Source of the DNA: Planctomycetota bacterium
GTDB lineage: Bacteria; Planctomycetota; Phycisphaerae; Phycisphaerales; UBA1924
Assembly (NCBI GenBank): GCA_033763975.1
Contig: JANRJM010000008.1
Coordinates: 62,001 to 126,000 of the forward strand
DNA: 64,000 nt
Direction: 5' to 3'
The number at the start of each line of letters is the position of its first letter. The stretch's first letter is position 1. The translations under genes were made by a program, and so were the position numbers. This document shows positions 55,094-64,000 of this stretch, in pieces. Under the pieces are notes generated by a model that did not search any database, was not told the origin of the DNA, and saw only the letters and a program-made list of their open reading frames with translations.

Positions 55094-56173
55094 CTATCGC
55101 CGCGACGGGGGCGCAGCGTCCGGCGCGGGGCCGCTCCATCGCAGGGCGCGGCGCGGGTCGATCACGCGCGTGACGCCGCCCTCGACGATCACGCACGCCC
55201 GCCCGCCGCACGCGCGGAGCAAGGGCGGCACATCGTCGGCGGGCACCAGGCACGCGGCGGTGGCGATCGCGTCGGCGATTTCACCCCGCGGGGCAACGAC
55301 GGTCGCCTGCGCACGGCGCGTGCTGCCCAGCCCCGTGCGCGGGTCCACGATGTGCGCGTAGCGCACGCGCCCGATCTCGACAAACTGCTCGGCATCGCCC
55401 GACGTCGACACGGCCGCGTTGGCGAGCACGAGCGTGCCCACAGCGGGCGCGTCCGGCGTTGCTCGCTCGCCCCGGATCTCGATGTGCCAGCCGTCACGCC
55501 CCGGCGGGGGCGAGCCCGCGACGACATCGCCGGCGAGCGAGACCAAGCAGCGCCCGTGCCCGCGCTCGCGCAGCACCTCGACCGCGCGCTGCGCGGCGTA
55601 TCCCTTGGCGATGCCCCCGAAGTCCAGGCCCATGCCGGCACGGGTAAGCATGACCGGCCCGGACTCGCCCGCGGGGAGCCGGACGGCGTGCCGATCTACC
55701 AGCGCGCGGGCGGCGTCGAGCTGGTCATGGTCGGGCAGTCGGCCATCACGGCGCGACGCACGCCACAATCGCACGAACGGCGCGACGGTCACGTCGAACG
55801 CGCCCGACGAGGCGTCGGAGACGATCGCGCCCACGCGGACGAGGTGGATGAGGTCCGCGGGCGAATCGACCGCGTGCCGCCCCGATGCCTCGCCTAGGCG
55901 CGTCACCACGCTGTCGCGCCGGTAGTCGCTGAGGATGGCGTCGAGGCGTGCGATCTCGGCGAAGGCGTCCTGCGCCGCCGCCTCGGCCGCGGACGCGTTG
56001 GGCGCGTAGAGCACGATGCGGGCCGGCACGCCCATCGAGACGCGCGCGAACTCGTGGCGCTCGAGCCGTCCCGCGCACGCGGGGAGCACCGCGAGCAGAA
56101 GAAGCACGCACACGAGCAGCCCGCGCACGCGCGGCGCGGATCGGCCCGGCGCCGGCCGCGCCGGCGGGCTCAC
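55094..56173 (-). CDS. apbE: ApbE-type FMN transferase, lipoprotein
   Basis: ApbE attaches FMN covalently to threonine in target proteins such as Rnf and Nqr subunits, and works in the periplasm. The 359-residue sequence has a lipoprotein signal (LLVCVLLLLAVLPACAG), FARVSMGVPARIVLYA, DAILSDYRRDSVVTRL, SSGAFDVTVAPFVRLWR, LDFGGIAKGYAAQRAVEVLRERG, CLVSLAGDVVAGSPPPGRDGWHIEI and AVSTSGDAEQFVEIGRVRYAHIVDPRTGLGS. The GTG start overlaps the astD stop by 4 bp, which places it in the ast-like operon. No Rnf/Nqr gene is in the window. Confidence 0.92.
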   Translation of the reverse strand: MSPPARPAPGRSAPRVRGLLVCVLLLLAVLPACAGRLERHEFARVSMGVPARIVLYAPNASAAEAAAQDAFAEIARLDAILSDYRRDSVVTRLGEASGRHAVDSPADLIHLVRVGAIVSDASSGAFDVTVAPFVRLWRASRRDGRLPDHDQLDAARALVDRHAVRLPAGESGPVMLTRAGMGLDFGGIAKGYAAQRAVEVLRERGHGRCLVSLAGDVVAGSPPPGRDGWHIEIRGERATPDAPAVGTLVLANAAVSTSGDAEQFVEIGRVRYAHIVDPRTGLGSTRRAQATVVAPRGEIADAIATAACLVPADDVPPLLRACGGRACVIVEGGVTRVIDPRRALRWSGPAPDAAPPSRR

Positions 56174-57738
56174 GCGTCGGCTTCCAGCCAGGCGGGGTCG
56201 AACATCATGCCCGGGGGCGGCGCGAGCGGGGCGTCGTCGTCGAGCCCGGCGACCGGGTACGCGCAGTAGTCGAGCGCGAACGCGCCGGCGGGGCGGTGAT
56301 TACCGGATAGGCCCAGCCCGCCGAAGGGCAGCTTGGAACTCGCGCCCGCGGTGCCCGTGTTCCAGTTGACGCAGCCGGCGCGCACGCGCTCGCGGAAGCG
56401 TGCCGCGGCGTCGGGGCGGCGCGTGAAGATCGACGCGGCGAGCCCGAAGTCGGTCGCGTTGGCCTGCTCGATCGCCTCGTCCTCGGTCTGGACGACGCAC
56501 ACGCGCAGGAACGGGCCGAACACCTCGACATCGGACCCCGGCGAACGGATCTTCCCGTCGGGGGCCGTCGCGCCGTCGCGCTCGAAGCGTTCGACGCGCA
56601 TGACGCCCGGTGACAGGAAGAACCCGCCGGCGTCGCTCTCGACGGGGCGGGGCTCGACGAGCAGCGACCCGCCCGCGCGGGTCAGGTCCGCGACCTGGCG
56701 CAGCACGTGGTCGCGCGATTCGCGCGAGATGAGCGGGCCGATGAAGACCGGGTGTGACGCCCCGGGGTCGCCGATGATGAGGCGCGACGCACCCCGGCAG
56801 ATGGCGGGGATGAGGCGGTCCGCCGCGCCCCGCTGCACGATCACGCGGCGCGCGCACGTGCAGCGCTGCCCGGCGGAGATGAACGCGGACCGCACGATCT
56901 CGGACGCGGCCCGGGCAAGGTCGGCGTCGTCGAGGACGACGACCGCGTTGTTGCCGCCCATCTCGAGCGCGAGGATGCGCCCCGGGCGGTCAAGGTTCGC
57001 CTGCATGATGCGCCGGCCGACGGGCCACGACCCGGTGAAGAGCACGCCGTCGATGTGCTCGTGCGCCACGATGCGCGACGCGACGTCGGCGCCGCCCTGC
57101 ACGAGGTTGAGCACGCCCCGGGGCGCGCCGGCCTCGCAGAGCGCGGCGTGGAGCAGCGTCGCGAGCATCTGCCCCACGAGCGGGGCCTTGTCGGAGGGCT
57201 TGAACACCACCGTGTTGCCCATGAGCAGCGCGGGCACGATGTGCCCGTTGGGCAGGTGCGCGGGAAAGTTGAACGGCCCCACCACCGCCATCACGCCGTG
57301 CGGGCGGAACCAGCATCGCCCGACGCGCCCCGGGGCGAGCGCGAGCTCAAACCCGCGGACGCGCGCCAGCCCCGCGTGCGCCGAGTCGTCGAGCGTGATG
57401 TCCACCTTCTGCGCGATGAGCTGCGCCTCGGCCTTCGCGTCCCACGCAACCTTGCCGACCTCGTCGCGGATGGCGTCGGCCAGCGCGGCCTCGTGCTCGC
57501 GCGCCAGCGCGCCGAACCGGCGCAGCACGCCCGCGCGGCGCTCGTGCGTCCAGGCGCTCCATTCGGCGAACGCCCCGCGCGCCGATTCCACCGCGCGATC
57601 GACGTGCGCCACGCTGCTCGACCCGCGCCACACCGCCTCGTGCGGGCGGGCGGGGTTGCACGACGTCAGCCCGTCCGGCGGGTGCTCGATCCACGCCCCG
57701 CCGAGCAGGTCGGCCGGCTGGTGCCACGCGATCGTCAC
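56170..57738 (-). CDS. astD: Succinylglutamate-semialdehyde dehydrogenase-like
   Basis: Aldehyde dehydrogenase, probably oxidising N-succinylglutamate semialdehyde to N-succinylglutamate (arginine succinyltransferase pathway). 522 residues. VMAVVGPFNFPAHLPNGHIVPALLMGNTVVFKPSDKAPLVGQ is a strong AstD signature; VLFTGSWPVGRRI, general-base Glu in ALEMGGNNAVVVLDDADLA, and catalytic Cys in ISAGQRCTCARRVIV follow. It overlaps astA upstream and apbE downstream by 4 bp each, showing tight coupling. Confidence 0.9.
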   Translation of the reverse strand: MTIAWHQPADLLGGAWIEHPPDGLTSCNPARPHEAVWRGSSSVAHVDRAVESARGAFAEWSAWTHERRAGVLRRFGALAREHEAALADAIRDEVGKVAWDAKAEAQLIAQKVDITLDDSAHAGLARVRGFELALAPGRVGRCWFRPHGVMAVVGPFNFPAHLPNGHIVPALLMGNTVVFKPSDKAPLVGQMLATLLHAALCEAGAPRGVLNLVQGGADVASRIVAHEHIDGVLFTGSWPVGRRIMQANLDRPGRILALEMGGNNAVVVLDDADLARAASEIVRSAFISAGQRCTCARRVIVQRGAADRLIPAICRGASRLIIGDPGASHPVFIGPLISRESRDHVLRQVADLTRAGGSLLVEPRPVESDAGGFFLSPGVMRVERFERDGATAPDGKIRSPGSDVEVFGPFLRVCVVQTEDEAIEQANATDFGLAASIFTRRPDAAARFRERVRAGCVNWNTGTAGASSKLPFGGLGLSGNHRPAGAFALDYCAYPVAGLDDDAPLAPPPGMMFDPAWLEADA

Positions 57739-58967
57739 GCCCGCGTCCTCGCGCCGGGCCTCGCGGTGCGCCCCGCGCGTGCGGTCGACGCCTTCGCGCG
57801 CGTCGCCTTCGCGCGGGCGGGTCGCACGGGCGTCTGCGCGCCCGCGCCCTCGTGCGGGAGTTCGTCGGGCACGATGCCCTTGAGGGGCGTCACGCCGATC
57901 TCGGCGCCCGCCTTCACGCGGAGCAGGTCCATCGCCTCGGCGCTCAGGCGCACGCCGTCGTCGGTGAGTTCGACCCAGTCTTCGGTGCAGCGGAACTCGC
58001 CGTCCTTGTCGAGGCTGCTCACGATCCCGCGGGCGGTGCGTCGCGGGGCGTCGGCGGCCTTGCCGGCCGTCAGGCGGCGCGTCTCACGCACGAGCGGGAT
58101 GTCATCGGTCGGCGCGTCGAGGTGCGGCCCGCCGTCGAACGGATCGACGAACCCGCGGTTGCGGAACCCCAGGCTCTCGAGCAGCCGCAGCGCCGGCAGC
58201 GTGTCGCGCCCGACGACGCCGATCTGGTTCTGCACTTCCAGCGGGAACAGCGACAGGTAGATCTCCTCTTTCGGCAGCAGATCGGAGATGAACCCCCGGT
58301 TGTGCTGGCAGAACCGGTCGGCCTCGCCGAAGCGCACCGGGATGAACTTGCGCCCGAAGTGGTCCCAGAAGACGTTGTCGCCCTCTTCGGACACCGGGCC
58401 CATCATCTCGGCCAGCACGCGGTCGGCGAACGCGGCCCGATGCAGGGCCATCCAGTGGAAGCGTGCGAACGACAGCAGGCGGCCCGGGCGCGCGGGGTGC
58501 CCGCGATAGGACGGCTGGATGATGAGCCCGCCGATCTCGGTGGGGCCGGATTCATCGCCGTACAACTGCCCGACCTTGTGCGTGCTGCCCCAGCCGAGGC
58601 GCTCGGAGCGGAAGGCCTTCTCGGAGATTTTGAACGTCCAGTTCGGGTTGCCCGGGCCGCCCTGGTGGGCGCGCACCTGCGACGTGCCGATCACGCCCCG
58701 CGTGTGCGTGTCCTCGATCGTGAGCATGAACAGCTCGGAGTCGTCGCCCGCATCGGCCCAGCCGGCGCCCGAACGGTGCGAGCGCCGACGCCGCCCGTGG
58801 GCGGCTTCCACCGGCACGCCGGCGGCCTTGCGGAAACACCGCGTCGACTGCTCGATCTTCGCCTGGATGATCGGCTCGTTCGGCGGCAGGTTGACGAAAT
58901 ACACCATCTTCGCCAGTTTCACCAGCGTCGAAACGTCGTCTGGCTTCGATCGACGGACGAGGAACAT
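57735..58967 (-). CDS. astA: Arginine/ornithine N-succinyltransferase-like
   Basis: Transfers succinyl from succinyl-CoA to the alpha-amino group of arginine or ornithine, first step of the AST pathway. From the ATG at 58967 it has 410 residues against about 340 in E. coli. Family marks: MFLVRRSKPDDVSTLVKLA, SLPPNE-like NLPPNEPIIQAKIEQS, GGLIIQPSYRGHPARPGRLLSFARFHWMALHR, VLAEMMGPVSEEGDNVFWDHFGRKFIPVRFGEAD and GFRNRGFVDPFDGGPHLDAP. Extra length comes from an Arg/Ser insert near residue 50 and a basic Ala/Arg/Thr tail. The longer open frame upstream is a shadow of the aminotransferase gene. Confidence 0.88.
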   Translation of the reverse strand: MFLVRRSKPDDVSTLVKLAKMVYFVNLPPNEPIIQAKIEQSTRCFRKAAGVPVEAAHGRRRRSHRSGAGWADAGDDSELFMLTIEDTHTRGVIGTSQVRAHQGGPGNPNWTFKISEKAFRSERLGWGSTHKVGQLYGDESGPTEIGGLIIQPSYRGHPARPGRLLSFARFHWMALHRAAFADRVLAEMMGPVSEEGDNVFWDHFGRKFIPVRFGEADRFCQHNRGFISDLLPKEEIYLSLFPLEVQNQIGVVGRDTLPALRLLESLGFRNRGFVDPFDGGPHLDAPTDDIPLVRETRRLTAGKAADAPRRTARGIVSSLDKDGEFRCTEDWVELTDDGVRLSAEAMDLLRVKAGAEIGVTPLKGIVPDELPHEGAGAQTPVRPARAKATRAKASTARAGRTARPGARTRA

Positions 58968-59083
58968 GCGCCCCCACTGGTTCGTGTTTTGTGCGGGAAC
59001 ACCCAAGAACTCGGGACCGCGCCCGCCGAGCCATCCTAGCAACCGGTGCCGCCACGGAACCCGAGGGGTCCGGACGCTTTCGC

Positions 59084-60550
59084 CTACACCGCCACCTTCG
59101 CCAAGCCGCGCTCGAGGCAGCCGAAGACGCGGGACCAGTGCTCCTCGCGCATGACGGGGAGCGGCGGGAGCATGCGCAGGTGGTACGGGCCGTGCCCGCA
59201 GTAGAACAGGATGAGCCCCTCGTCGAAGCACGCGCGGCAGGCGGCGTTGATCCTGGCCTTGTCGCCCCCGAAGGGCGTGAGGCGCATCATGCCGCCCGTG
59301 CCGCCGGCGAGCGCGTCGCCCCCGCCGCCCAGCGCGGGGACGGGCGGGAACCATTCGGGGCGTCGCGCGATGAGCTCGCGCGAGAGGCGGCGGAAGGTGT
59401 CGTGGTGGCGCGCGAACTCGCCTGAGTCGCCGTAGAACGGGCCGTCGCGCAGGCGTTCCAGAACGCGCGTGCCGACGCGGAACGAGACACCCTCGCCGGT
59501 GAACGTGCCCGAGAGCAGCCCGGCCTTGGGGTTGAACTCCTCGGTGAAGAGCGTCGCGCACGCCTGCGTCATCTTGCCGACGCAGAAGACGTCGACGTAC
59601 TCGCCCAGGTCGAAGAGCTCGTACGCGAACATCCGGGGCGTGCGTCCGAAGGTCTGGATCTCGTCGTCCCAGATGGGCACCTGGTGGGCGCGGCAGACGT
59701 CCATGAGCGCCTTGAAGAAGTCGCGATTCCCCACGTTGAACCCGCCCTCGCCCTGCACGAGCTCAAAGATGAAGCACGCGTGCTGCCCGGGGTAGCGGTG
59801 CAGGTACTGCTCCAGGTGCTTCACGCTCATGTCGATGAACCGCGTGGCGCCCATGCGCTCGGCGGCGACGGCGTCGTAGAAGGGCATGTAGTCCACGAGC
59901 GTGCTGAGCGGGAGGCCCTGGCGATAGTCCGGCGTGTCGCCGATCTGCGCCATCGTGATCGACCGCCCCATGAAGCAGTCCTGGAACGCCAGGACGCGCG
60001 GGGCCCCTCCGCGCTTCTGCATGCACACCTTCAGAGCGTTCTCGTTCGCCATCGCGCCGCTCGTGGCGAGGTACGAGTACTTCAGGCGGCTGGCGCGCTT
60101 CGCGAGCGAGAGCAGCGTCTGCGCGAACGTGAACGCCTCGGCGTTCGACAGGAGATTGCCGTGCTTCACGACGTCGTCGAGCCCGGCGGCGAGGGCCTGC
60201 CCGACGAGGTCGGCGTCGGAATGCCCGAAGAAGTGCACGCCGATGCCGCAGATCATGTCCCACTTCACCGACCCGTCGGCGAGTTCGACCAGCGGGCCGT
60301 TGCCGAGCCCGGAGCCGACGCAGGGGTAGAGCAGCGCGCGTCCGCGGACGTCGGCCGCGGTCTGGAGCAGCTCGTCGTACGACTGGCGCAGGCCAGGGTT
60401 GGGCGGGCGTTCGCCGGTGAGCAAGGCCGACTGCCGGCGCACCTCGGCGACGATCGCGTCGATCGCCGCACGCACCGCGGAGCTGTGGCGCAGTTGCGAT
60501 GCCTGCGTGGTGGAAGCGGGCGGGGCGGCGTGGGCGGCGGGGGCGTGCAT
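59084..60550 (-). CDS. Class III aminotransferase (AstC/ArgD-like position)
   Basis: A 488-residue PLP aminotransferase. GLGNGPLVELADGSVKWDMICGIGVHFFGHSDADLV, YLATSGAMANENALKVCMQKR, CFIFELVQGEGGFNVGNRDFF, IWDDEIQTFGRTPRMFAYELF (PLP-contacting Asp) and the Schiff-base Lys in CVGKMTQACATLF are visible. It is more distant from E. coli AstC/ArgD than usual, but its place before astA and astD suggests it transaminates N-succinylornithine. The ATG at 60550 has GGAG 6 nt upstream; a longer frame from 60595 is less likely. 117 bp separate it from astA. Confidence 0.85.
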   Translation of the reverse strand: MHAPAAHAAPPASTTQASQLRHSSAVRAAIDAIVAEVRRQSALLTGERPPNPGLRQSYDELLQTAADVRGRALLYPCVGSGLGNGPLVELADGSVKWDMICGIGVHFFGHSDADLVGQALAAGLDDVVKHGNLLSNAEAFTFAQTLLSLAKRASRLKYSYLATSGAMANENALKVCMQKRGGAPRVLAFQDCFMGRSITMAQIGDTPDYRQGLPLSTLVDYMPFYDAVAAERMGATRFIDMSVKHLEQYLHRYPGQHACFIFELVQGEGGFNVGNRDFFKALMDVCRAHQVPIWDDEIQTFGRTPRMFAYELFDLGEYVDVFCVGKMTQACATLFTEEFNPKAGLLSGTFTGEGVSFRVGTRVLERLRDGPFYGDSGEFARHHDTFRRLSRELIARRPEWFPPVPALGGGGDALAGGTGGMMRLTPFGGDKARINAACRACFDEGLILFYCGHGPYHLRMLPPLPVMREEHWSRVFGCLERGLAKVAV

Positions 60551-60651
60551 GCGGAACTCCGGAATGGTCCGTTCTCTATCGGCACGGACGAGCAAACGCT
60601 ACGCCGATTCCAGCCGCCGCTGCGGGAGCGCCCGACGGGCCCCGACGCGCT

Positions 60652-61872
60652 TCAGGCCATGCGCGTCGGCCCGCCCCGGGACGCCAGGCGGGCCAGCAGC
60701 ACCGACGCGAGCTGGCAGCGTTCCACCAGGCTCGCGACCTCGATCCATTCGTCGGTCGTGTGCAGCCCACCGCCCCGCACGCCCAGCGTGTCGATCGTCG
60801 GGAGTCCCGCGGCCTGCAGGGTGTTCCCGTCGCACACGCCCCCGGTAGACCCGAAGGGGAGTTGCTGCCCTAAGCCTTGCGCAACGTCGCGGGCCATTTC
60901 GGCCAGGGTCATCGTCCCGGGCGTCGCGGGCTTTGACGGGCGATTGAACGAACGCTCCACGCGCACGCTCGCGACGGCGTTCGGGCGGGCAAGATCATCG
61001 AGCCCCGAGGCGAGTTCGGCCTCGATCTCCGCGTTCTTGAACCGGACGTTTCCCCACGCGTGGCAACTGTCCGGCACGATGTTCGTGGCGACGCCGCCCT
61101 CGATCACGCCGATGCTCGCGATCTTGCCCCGATCGACGTCGACGAGGTCGTGCACGGCGCGGACGCACTCGGCCATCGAGACGATCGCGGACACGCCCTT
61201 GCGGAAGTCGCGCCCGACGTGGGCCGCCACGCCGCCGGTCTCGATGTAGAACTGCCCGCTGCCCGGACGCTCGACCACCAGGCCCCCGTCGGGGAGGGCG
61301 GGCTCGAAGACAAGCCCGACGTCGTGCCGAGCGGCCTCGGCGCGCAGCGCGCGGTCCGAGCAGTACGACCCGACCTCCTCATCGGAGTTCAGGACGAAGG
61401 ACCAGGATATCGGCACGCCGGCCTCGTGCAGCACCTCGAGCGCGTGCAGCGCCACGACGAGCCCGCCCTTCATGTCGGCGCAGCCCGGCCCGAAGCCCGT
61501 CCGCCCGTCGGCGCTCAGGGTCAACTCCCGGAATGGCCCGCGCGGGTCGTGCACGGTGTCGAGGTGCCCGCTGAGCAGGATGCGCATGCCCGGGGCGCGG
61601 TCGTCGGGACGCCGGCAGACGGCGGTGGGCGGCGCGCTCGAGTTCGCTCCCGCCCGCTCGATCCACGCCGGGCGCGAATCGCCGGGCACATGCTCGATGG
61701 CCGCGCCGAGCGCCCGCAGGCGCGATTCGAACCACGCGCGGGTGTCGTCCAGGCCGGGCGCGTGGTGCATCCCCGTGGGGATCGCGACCAGCGAGCGCAG
61801 GTCGGCGAGCATGGACGCGCTCCGCTGCGCCGCACGCCGCGAGAGATCATGTTCGGCGGTCGAGAGGGTCAT
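60652..61872 (-). CDS. M20-family amidohydrolase (carboxypeptidase G2/ArgE-like)
   Basis: A 406-residue zinc metallohydrolase. Metal ligands in LLSGHLDTVHDP (His, Asp), GFGPGCADMKGGLVVALHALEVL (Asp), NSDEEVGS (catalytic and ligand Glu), and the late HTTDEWIE His; the dimerisation insert includes ETGGVAAHVGRDFRKGVSAI. M20 members cleave N-acyl or glutamyl amide bonds. At the head of the ast-like cluster it may replace AstE by releasing succinate from succinylglutamate, or deacylate another intermediate; this is inference. Its start is 4 bp overlapped with the M48 gene stop region. Confidence 0.82.
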   Translation of the reverse strand: MTLSTAEHDLSRRAAQRSASMLADLRSLVAIPTGMHHAPGLDDTRAWFESRLRALGAAIEHVPGDSRPAWIERAGANSSAPPTAVCRRPDDRAPGMRILLSGHLDTVHDPRGPFRELTLSADGRTGFGPGCADMKGGLVVALHALEVLHEAGVPISWSFVLNSDEEVGSYCSDRALRAEAARHDVGLVFEPALPDGGLVVERPGSGQFYIETGGVAAHVGRDFRKGVSAIVSMAECVRAVHDLVDVDRGKIASIGVIEGGVATNIVPDSCHAWGNVRFKNAEIEAELASGLDDLARPNAVASVRVERSFNRPSKPATPGTMTLAEMARDVAQGLGQQLPFGSTGGVCDGNTLQAAGLPTIDTLGVRGGGLHTTDEWIEVASLVERCQLASVLLARLASRGGPTRMA

Positions 61873-63263
61873 GCGGCGTGCTCCAGCAGGTGCATCGCAG
61901 CGTACGCGAGGACCGTCCCCGCGATGACGATGCCCGTCGCCAGTTTAATGCGGCGCACGGTGCGGTCGATCGGCAGCGAGCCGCGCGGCAGGCCCACCAG
62001 CCCGCGCACGTGGGCGATGCGCCCGCCGATGGATCCGTGCCGGAACGAGAACCGGTCCGGGGGGATCGCGTTCAGGCTGGCCACGCCCTCGAGCGCGCTG
62101 CCCATGGCCCGCCCGGCCTCGGGCGTCACGACCGGCGCGTCGCCCGACAGGTGCAGCGCCCCGAAGGCGTCGGCCTGGCGTTCGAACCGGCGGCTGACGA
62201 ACCCGAACACGAGCCCGGCGAGCGCGAGCACGCCCAGCGAGAGCGGCCCGTCGTACGCGCGTGGGTCCGCCGGGCGCAGCAGCATCTCTAGGCCCCACAG
62301 CGCCCACCCCGCCGCGAACGTCGTCGCGAACAGCGACAGCGCGAGCCAGATCATGTGGTTGAGCTTCACGTGCGCCACCTCGTGCGCCACCACGCCCTCG
62401 ACCTGCTCGCGCGTCAGGCCTTCCAGCAGCGCGTCGGTGAACAGCATGTACCGGAAGGGGTACAGCACGCCGAGCACCGCGGCGTTGGCGACCGACCCGT
62501 GCGTGCGCCACAGCAGCGGGCCCCGCACGCGCACGCCGAATCGGCGGCACACTCCCACCGCCTGGTCGCGCAGCTCGCCGGCCGAGATCGGCACGGTGTC
62601 CCACAGCACGCGGACGATCGCGGGCGTCACGACCAGCACCACGCCCACGCCCAGCCAGGCCGCCGCCTCGAAGGCCCACCCCGGCAGGCGTCCCGCCATG
62701 CGCGACGCCGCGACCTGCACCGTCTCCTGCCACGCCGACACGAGCGTGAGGGGCACGAGCACCAGCAGCGCGGAGTGTCGCATCTGATGCCACACGAAGA
62801 GCCCGCGCGCCATCGGCGGGTACAGCGTCGCACCGGTGTGGAGGTGGCGCCAGAGGACGGCCTCCTTCAGCCGTCGCTCGACGGGCTCGATCGTCCACCA
62901 CGCCGCCAGCAGGAACGCGAACATCGGCGACACGATGAGGATCTCGTCGATCGCGATGAGATCGCCGACGCGGGCGCGCACGGCCTCTGGCCACCCGCCC
63001 GCGACGATCGCGCCGACAAGCGCGGCACCGGCCAGGAGGCGGGCGACGGCGTGGACGCGCTGCGCGAAGAACGCCGCCCGCACGCTGCCGTGCCGGTCCA
63101 TGCGCCGGGCGCTCCGCCACGCGACGCCCTGGAGCGTCGCCCAGAGCGCGCCGAGCGCCGCGAGGACGATCCAGGGCGCGACGGGCTGCGTGTGCGCATC
63201 GACCAGCGCGTCGTCATGGACGTGCAGGGCGACGAAGAGGGCAATCACGATGACCTGGACCAC
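61869..63263 (-). CDS. Integral-membrane M48 metallopeptidase
   Basis: A 464-residue membrane protein with several helices (VIVIALFVALHV at the start, PWIVLAALGALWATL, VARLLAGAALVGAIVAGGW, MFAFLLAAWWTI, WLGVGVVLVVTPAIVRVLW, LALSLFATTFAAGWALWGLEML, LSLGVLALAGLVFGFVSR). The zinc motif is HEVAH (QVEGVVAHEVAHVKLNH), with RRFERQADAFGA giving the third ligand. The layout matches Ste24/HtpX-type peptidases acting on membrane or prenylated substrates. The GTG at 63263 is the most upstream start after the preceding gene; the exact start is uncertain. It overlaps the M20 gene by 4 bp. Confidence 0.8.
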   Translation of the reverse strand: MVQVIVIALFVALHVHDDALVDAHTQPVAPWIVLAALGALWATLQGVAWRSARRMDRHGSVRAAFFAQRVHAVARLLAGAALVGAIVAGGWPEAVRARVGDLIAIDEILIVSPMFAFLLAAWWTIEPVERRLKEAVLWRHLHTGATLYPPMARGLFVWHQMRHSALLVLVPLTLVSAWQETVQVAASRMAGRLPGWAFEAAAWLGVGVVLVVTPAIVRVLWDTVPISAGELRDQAVGVCRRFGVRVRGPLLWRTHGSVANAAVLGVLYPFRYMLFTDALLEGLTREQVEGVVAHEVAHVKLNHMIWLALSLFATTFAAGWALWGLEMLLRPADPRAYDGPLSLGVLALAGLVFGFVSRRFERQADAFGALHLSGDAPVVTPEAGRAMGSALEGVASLNAIPPDRFSFRHGSIGGRIAHVRGLVGLPRGSLPIDRTVRRIKLATGIVIAGTVLAYAAMHLLEHAA

Positions 63264-63304
63264 GGGAACGGGATTGTTGGCGCCCCGCGCCGGGGCCCGT
63301 GGGG

Positions 63305-64000
63305 TCAGACCTTGACGATCGCCTCCCACGCCTCGTGCAGGCGCCGCACCGAGACGGGCACGGGCGTGCGGAGTTCCTGCGCGAAGAGCGAGACGCGCAG
63401 TTCCTCTACGAGCCAGCGGAACTCGCGCACGCGGGCGGGATCGAGCCCGAGCTCGCGCTCGCGCTTGGTGAGCTCGAGATAGCCGCGCCAGATGGGCATC
63501 ACCTCGCGCATGCGCTGGATGTCTCGCGCGACGCCCTGCCCCGCGAGGCGCTGGAGTCGCAGGTCGATCGCCGCCAGGTAGCGGGGCAGGTGGCGGAGGG
63601 AGTCCCAAGGGGTTGCGATGGGGAAGTTCGGGGGCAGCATCGCGGCGAGCTGCCCGCGCATGTCCTCGACGCTCTCGCTCCACGCGGCGGGGACCCGCCC
63701 CGACAGGCGCGACAGGACCGCCTGCGCGCCGCGCAGCACGAGTTCGCACGCGTCCGCGCACTCGCGCACGGACGCGCCGAGGTTCGAGACCGCCCGGCGC
63801 GACGCGCCGGTGAACTCGTCCTTCGTGCGCGGGAGGCGCTGCGTGGAGCCGAGCGCCCGCTCGACGACGAGTTCGTTGAACGCCGCCCGGAAGACGCGCG
63901 GGTCGCCGAGGATCGCCGCGAGCGCCGACAGGCGTTCGACGTCCGGGTGCCGGTGCGTGGCGCGCCGGACCTCGCCCTCGGCGTCGAGCATGAAGAGACG
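63305..64000 (-). CDS. hrpA: HrpA-type ATP-dependent RNA helicase, C-terminal part
   Basis: The frame is open at the right edge, so only the last 231 residues are seen. They match the DUF3418 C-terminal region of HrpA: RTKDEFTGASRRAVSNL, LPPNFPIATPWDSLRHLPRYLAAIDLRLQRLAGQGVARDIQRM, and REFRWLVEELRVSLFAQELRTPVPVSVRRLHEAWE. HrpA is a DEAH-box helicase used in mRNA processing and in rescuing stalled ribosomes. The helicase core lies outside the window. It is the first gene seen of a possible transcript running on to the M48 gene. Confidence 0.85.
   Translation of the reverse strand, partial: RLFMLDAEGEVRRATHRHPDVERLSALAAILGDPRVFRAAFNELVVERALGSTQRLPRTKDEFTGASRRAVSNLGASVRECADACELVLRGAQAVLSRLSGRVPAAWSESVEDMRGQLAAMLPPNFPIATPWDSLRHLPRYLAAIDLRLQRLAGQGVARDIQRMREVMPIWRGYLELTKRERELGLDPARVREFRWLVEELRVSLFAQELRTPVPVSVRRLHEAWEAIVKV

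Follow-up and report, generated by a model that had tools for sequence, protein, structure and literature searches.

A probable rebuilt arginine succinyltransferase pathway with an exchangeable guanidino step in Phycisphaerales

A 64,000-nucleotide stretch of the genome of a Planctomycetota bacterium from the order Phycisphaerales (family UBA1924; assembly GCA_033763975.1, contig JANRJM010000008.1, positions 62,001 to 126,000 of the forward strand), hereafter the window, carries on its minus strand an operon that is a conserved variant of the known arginine succinyltransferase (AST) pathway. Our reading, to which we assign a probability of about three in four, is that this is a rebuilt AST pathway in which a core operon is combined with an exchangeable module for removal of the guanidino group, and that the apbE gene at the end of the operon is a chance neighbor. 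With the activities that we infer for the individual proteins, AstA would succinylate the alpha-amino group of arginine or ornithine, a class III aminotransferase would convert N2-succinylornithine to the semialdehyde, AstD would turn the semialdehyde into N-succinylglutamate, and an M20 metallohydrolase would split N-succinylglutamate into glutamate and succinate. The guanidino group would be removed by AstB in some relatives and, in others, by a ureohydrolase of the agmatinase/guanidino-acid hydrolase branch. The most likely substrate of this ureohydrolase is N2-succinylarginine, from which it would yield urea and succinylornithine; free arginine is a less likely one. In the window genome, only the core is present, and the species may take ornithine as the substrate, may have lost the ureohydrolase, or may encode it in an unassembled part of the genome. 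The operon is akin to the classical one (astCADBE or aruCFGDBE) in that AstA and AstD belong to the respective families and the same order of chemistry is proposed; it differs in that AstC, AstB and AstE are missing, with a different class III aminotransferase and the M20 hydrolase filling two of the places, and in that removal of the guanidino group is either absent or left to an exchangeable enzyme.

A conserved succinyltransferase core

The minus-strand gene order is M48-family peptidase, M20 hydrolase, aminotransferase, astA, astD and apbE, and the five genes from M20 to apbE are intact; Pfam and NCBIfam searches confirmed the positions, order and family assignments of these five genes, a row that had been described earlier from the sequence alone. 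The M20 gene (60652..61872), a candidate N-succinylglutamate desuccinylase standing in for AstE, encodes a protein that matches PF01546 (80.9 bits, cut-off 24.6) and NF005602/PRK07338 (336 bits). The aminotransferase gene (59084..60550 from the ATG start, with an alternative TTG at 60595), a candidate N2-succinylornithine aminotransferase in place of AstC, belongs to the Aminotran_3 family (PF00202, 127.9 bits, cut-off 30.5) and fails the AstC models (TIGR03246, 65.4 bits, cut-off 609.95; NF009047, 65.1 bits, cut-off 630), so that it is no orthologue of AstC; its putative pyridoxal phosphate lysine, K326 (numbered from the ATG), is invariant (66/66). The product of astA (57735..58967), an arginine/ornithine N-succinyltransferase by family, matches PF04958 (276.9 bits, cut-off 29.4) and the solved structure 1yle, the alpha chain of arginine N-succinyltransferase (E 2.8e-23), and reaches only 188.8 bits against the equivalog model TIGR03244 (cut-off 391). 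This AstA has an insertion rich in Arg and a C-terminal tail rich in Lys, Arg and Ala, and its match in the genome search is split into two segments. The predicted N-succinylglutamate 5-semialdehyde dehydrogenase encoded by astD (56170..57738) is a member of the Aldedh family for which the best curated match, NF006992 (474.3 bits), is below the cut-off of 514, as is that to TIGR03240 (453.5 bits, cut-off 579.3); its top three matches in the PDB are solved AstD structures (4kna, E 1.5e-101), and the putative catalytic residues C293 and E259 are invariant (70/70).

The sequence-only reading, in which the genes were said to lie mostly with 4-bp overlaps, holds for two of the four junctions, astA/astD and astD/apbE, and fails for the other two: the M20 and aminotransferase genes are 56 bp apart if the latter starts at the TTG and 101 bp apart if it starts at the ATG, and 116 bp separate the aminotransferase gene from the astA ATG at 58967. 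A further 4-bp overlap joins the M48 peptidase gene to the M20 gene. A scan for promoters and terminators yielded no more signals than shuffled sequences did.

We searched 121 genomes of the order, the window's own included, and found AstA in 89 and none in 32; the AstA locus was read in 76 of the 88 other AstA-positive genomes, the remaining 12 not being read as long stretches, and the synteny counts refer to these 76. Their loci contain astD in 69 cases, the aminotransferase in 65 and M20 in 48, with all four genes together in 45. The grouping of M20, aminotransferase, astA and astD is far beyond chance, and the four genes constitute an arginine/ornithine succinyltransferase core that has been conserved; apbE is no part of it. 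AstB close to that of Escherichia coli is found in 10 of the 76 loci, and four genomes (G034, G055, G115, G118) hold all of M20, aminotransferase, astA, astD and astB in the AstA loci read; in G055, these genes are spread over two AstA loci, with astD beside the second astA copy. Two very distant AstA paralogues (54-58 bits) are located apart from the ast operon (L065, G083:C7:133442-134518; L066, G036:C14:31673-32740).

The classical AST pathway requires AstB (succinylarginine dihydrolase) and AstE (desuccinylase). The absence of both, previously noted for the operon, extends to the whole genome assembly (3.27 Mb, 19 contigs, 96.95% complete): there are no matches to PF04996, the AstB model that does find the E. 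coli and Caulobacter controls, and none to PF04952 for AstE. The sole AstE-fold match in the window genome (PF24827, 38 bits) was rejected as AstE, being an M14/MpaA-like amidase. Proteins of this fold were likewise rejected as the true desuccinylase of the order: PF24827 matches occur in 65 of the 121 genomes, AstA-negative ones included, and the three such proteins from relatives that were scanned best match DoeB (68-82 bits, cut-off 402.7), with at most 21.6 bits against AstE-type models. The Caulobacter vibrioides control genome itself matches the AstA and AstB models and not the AstE models.

Probable exchange of AstB and a ureohydrolase

A ureohydrolase of the 'agmatinase' type is present in 40 of the 121 genomes, all of them AstA-positive. 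The orthologous group was delineated with a dedicated alignment (cut at E 1e-60, with all matches at E 1e-138 or better), from which the counts derive; a first reading of this class by E-value as a 'true arginase' was dropped when the proteins proved agmatinase-like. The distribution is mutually exclusive with that of AstB: of the 89 AstA-positive genomes, 45 encode AstB alone and 40 the ureohydrolase alone, no genome combines the two, and four (the window's own genome, G000, along with G026, G061 and G111) lack either enzyme, which corresponds to a Fisher p of 4e-21 with kinship ignored. One AstA-negative genome, G113, has AstB. In a quick tree of three core proteins (76 rows: 37 AstB, 36 ureohydrolase and 3 neither; the second-AstA-copy loci L065, L066, L081 and L083 were left out), the AstB/ureohydrolase label changes 8 times, and all seven informative independent pairs are opposite (two-sided p 0.0156). 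Swaps are found even within genera, namely, in g2 (G062 vs G001, G007, G012, G017 and G074) and in g55 (G051 and G108 vs G045 and G090). The ureohydrolase gene is within 7.5 kb of astA in 22 of the 40 genomes and, in 21 of these 22, lies downstream on the same strand, often directly after astD. Given that most of the AstB-less relatives carry this dedicated ureohydrolase, arginine can still be the source in these organisms, and the likeliest role of the ureohydrolase appears to be that of AstB, performed perhaps directly on N2-succinylarginine.

Some points count against this interpretation. The exclusion could reflect lineage or physiology rather than a shared step; the exchange half of the argument rests on relatives, the ureohydrolase not being in the window genome itself; and the relatives' enzyme passes the agmatinase model TIGR01230 (193 bits, cut-off 174.3), a name that does not establish agmatine as the substrate.

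For the window species, one alternative, to which we give just short of an even chance, is that the ureohydrolase or AstB is encoded in an unassembled stretch, so that the species would be the standard variant of its family. The assembly is not fully complete, the window operon nests among five ureohydrolase carriers in the core tree (support 100), and the ureohydrolase is present in every one of the 26 other genomes of the family that have AstA without AstB; against this, the assembly is continuous across the slot after astD, the usual place of the ureohydrolase gene, which apbE occupies here, and the dedicated search detected no ureohydrolase in the window genome at E 1e-60, nor was AstB found. 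The two arginase-family genes that this genome does contain are an agmatinase-family gene (178.9 bits against the agmatinase model, cut-off 174.3) and a HutG-like one (161.1 bits, below the cut-off of 229.15). We judge it about as likely that the gene was missed as that it was truly lost. Core-only operons seem to exist in other lineages, as G026 and G061 have neither enzyme, with G061 assembled as one contig, and ornithine is the simplest substrate for these; the gene content of the window genome would reflect ornithine use, an assembly gap or gene loss.

Ornithine also figures in a second alternative, a close rival of the succinylarginine reading that is somewhat less probable than an assembly gap. 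Under this scenario, ornithine comes first, from an arginase-type ureohydrolase or from elsewhere, AstA succinylates it and the core degrades the product. The relatives' 'agmatinase' would then be an arginase, and the window species would draw its ornithine from another source. Several facts fit: ornithine-accepting enzymes of the AstA type are known, as described for AruFG of Pseudomonas aeruginosa (PMC9007349); the core-only operons of G026 and G061 (the latter 98% complete) seem to be real; G111 encodes a RocF-like arginase with neither AstB nor this ureohydrolase; and a plant arginase (6vsu) scores 142.7 bits on the ureohydrolase profile. That score, however, is the highest among arginases, compared with 229-240 bits for the best agmatinases and 277-287 bits for the closest solved chains, 3-guanidinopropionase, proclavaminate amidinohydrolase and guanidinobutyrase, and the ureohydrolase fails the RocF arginase model TIGR01229 (53.7 bits, cut-off 227.6). 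The structure search, with a fair model (predicted local distance difference test, pLDDT, 71.2), places proclavaminate amidinohydrolase first (1gq6, Z score 34.9), with formimidoylglutamase and guanidinopropionase close behind and arginases at no more than 28.6. RocF-like enzymes are found at four loci (L122, L126, L129, L141), and two of the respective genomes (G055, G105) also hold AstB; thus, a plain arginase and AstB are not mutually exclusive, whereas the ureohydrolase never occurs with AstB. Finally, in the rows from families f1, f2 and f4, AstA alignment columns track the division into AstB and ureohydrolase carriers no more closely than the AstD control columns do (top mutual information 0.52 vs 0.58 bits), and hence there is no sign of a change of AstA substrate at the swaps.

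There are precedents for action on an N2-acylated arginine. Proclavaminate amidinohydrolase acts on an N2-substituted arginine derivative. The human 'agmatinase' AGMAT/GDAH was shown to hydrolyse guanidino acids rather than agmatine (PMC9772407), and peptide arginases act on arginine within a peptide (PMC10028609). Taken together, the nearest relatives, these precedents, the co-occurrence of RocF-like arginases with AstB and the result on AstA columns favor succinylarginine as the probable substrate of the ureohydrolase. In the literature searched, from which most subscription papers were absent, we found no report assigning succinylarginine hydrolysis to a ureohydrolase, nor any record of activity on N2-succinylarginine for guanidinopropionase, guanidinobutyrase, proclavaminate amidinohydrolase or AGMAT/GDAH, its nearest solved relatives. 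Another entry that bypasses AstB and feeds ornithine to AruFG is the citrullinase CtlX, which is described as only distantly related to arginine deiminases (PMC9007349). Arginine deiminase was itself considered as a source of ornithine and set aside, since family PF02274 has no match in the window genome, in a search that may not reach relatives as distant as CtlX.

The M20 hydrolase and the AstE step

The proposal of the sequence-only reading that the M20 protein could take the AstE step is well supported. In a genome-wide alignment search, this protein was found as a single copy in 81 of the 121 genomes, all of which are among the 89 with AstA; the 32 AstA-negative genomes yielded no match. 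Beyond the order, we examined the best 80 of at least 588 M20 relatives, chosen by M20 alone. Among the 34 loci closest to that of the window, astA (>150 bits) is present in 25, and several of the remaining nine are on short contigs. The 46 more distant loci, from taxa that include Oceanospirillaceae, Legionella, Marinobacterium, Kordiimonas, Thalassospira, Novosphingobium, Pirellulaceae and Chlamydiae, contain astA in 34 cases, astD in 27 and astB in 27, with no astA seen in ten and no astE of the E. coli type in any of the 46. M20 relatives adjoin astA, astD and astB in Legionella, Marinobacterium, Kordiimonas, Thalassospira and others, and none of the 31 genomes with such loci has a match above the cut-off to the AstE model TIGR03242 (best 31.5 bits, cut-off 305.65), which the E. 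coli control passes. It is mainly because the M20 loci beyond the order hold astA, astD and astB in genomes without AstE that we assign the AstE step to M20; its perfect co-occurrence with AstA and its presence in complete, AstB-containing operons elsewhere make it the best candidate, and very probably it is a succinylglutamate desuccinylase.

The structural data are compatible with this candidate activity. The model of the M20 protein (pLDDT 94.6; predicted template modeling score, pTM, 0.92) is closest to carboxypeptidase G2 (1cg2; Z score 45.9, root-mean-square deviation 3.6 over 381 residues, 27% identity), an enzyme that cuts N-acyl-glutamates, followed by a putative acetylornithine deacetylase, a tripeptidase and DapE succinyl-diaminopimelate desuccinylases (Z scores 35-39). 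No variation (24/24) is seen at H103, D105, D133, E165, E166, E190 and H371, which we take to be the metal-binding and catalytic residues of the M20 family. The fold is that of carboxypeptidase G2, but four further residues, R202, R221, K314 and N350, which are invariant in 30 ast-linked M20 sequences, are not shared with it, their counterparts being T, A, F and A. N-succinylglutamate has three carboxylates, to which the three extra basic residues (R202, R221, K314) would be suited.

Some of the evidence pulls the other way. The window M20 protein, although a close relative of NF005602, is just under its cut-off (336 vs 357 bits), and that family is named merely 'hydrolase'; the three M20 proteins scanned from ast operons outside the order, those of Legionella, Marinobacterium and Thalassospira, reach 506-551 bits. 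Eight of the 89 AstA-positive genomes lack M20 (G016, G018, G030, G039, G075, G084, G111, G117), and it was not found in the AstA locus of 28 of the 76 genomes, some loci being short, with most of these genomes carrying M20 elsewhere. That M20 is an ordinary peptidase or an acetylornithine-type deacylase, with something else performing the succinylglutamate step, is nevertheless very unlikely: M20 proteins are versatile and that of the window is below the curated cut-off, but the protein is restricted to AstA-positive genomes, in single copy in all 81, and belongs to operons with AstB and without AstE in several phyla. Our search of the literature, in which subscription papers were mostly out of reach, found no assignment of succinylglutamate hydrolysis to an M20 protein.

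Four of the M20-less genomes (G018, G075, G084, G117) form the one clade of family f2 without M20, and at all four of its loci, the slot of the M20 gene, directly before the aminotransferase gene, is occupied by a C45-type N-terminal nucleophile (Ntn) acyltransferase/hydrolase of the C45/AAT class (L100:6444-7496, L104:6410-7483, L105:11404-12468 and L109:6094-7170; the L109 protein, which was scanned, scores 160 bits with a cut-off of 85). This protein is a candidate second replacement of AstE, and such an independent substitution for M20 in one and the same slot is a further argument that the slot is that of the desuccinylase.

Neighboring genes and implications

The last gene of the row, apbE (55094..56173), encodes an FAD:protein FMN transferase (PF02424, 210.8 bits, cut-off 25.6). 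The sequence-only reading treated the presence of an FMN transferase in the operon as lacking a known reason, which is not a question that the comparison sustains: apbE has no match in the AstA loci of the 76 other genomes and is best regarded as a chance neighbor. ApbE matches were found in 26 of the 41 genomes of the family searched. In the only other genome of the genus encountered (G153), apbE has a counterpart (55% identity), and the 7 kb after it contain homologues of the next two genes of the window (62% and 59% identity); no ast operon was detected in the 40 kb read. A role for ApbE in the pathway was therefore rejected, the gene being beside ast genes in this genome only; because the G153 apbE keeps its downstream block without an ast operon, the 4-bp overlap of astD and apbE is most likely a local accident of position. 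On the other side of the operon, upstream of the M20 gene, lies a gene for an M48-family membrane peptidase (61869..63380, minus strand, start not fixed; PF01435, 49.9 bits). This peptidase (cluster c9) has kept its place before the ast core in different families of the order, at 21 loci, and has no known link to the pathway.

A more specific formulation of the rebuilt pathway we put forward tentatively, as slightly less than an even bet: an undescribed N2-succinylarginine ureohydrolase of Phycisphaerales-type bacteria, annotated as agmatinase, would have been swapped with AstB about 8 times, the AstC and AstE steps would be held by unrelated enzymes (for AstE, mostly M20, and C45 in one clade), and the window species would run the core without either guanidino enzyme. 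If the rebuilt pathway is real, a desuccinylase of a different fold, currently named only 'hydrolase' in NCBIfam, would carry out the AstE step in several phyla, including Legionella and alphaproteobacteria, and tools that fill pathway gaps by seeking AstE would therefore call arginine catabolism incomplete in these organisms. The exchange of AstB and the ureohydrolase would add a new activity for proteins named 'agmatinase' and would offer a clear-cut example from nature of a single metabolic step whose enzyme has been replaced again and again. Together, these observations suggest a new route of arginine breakdown that standard annotation misses.

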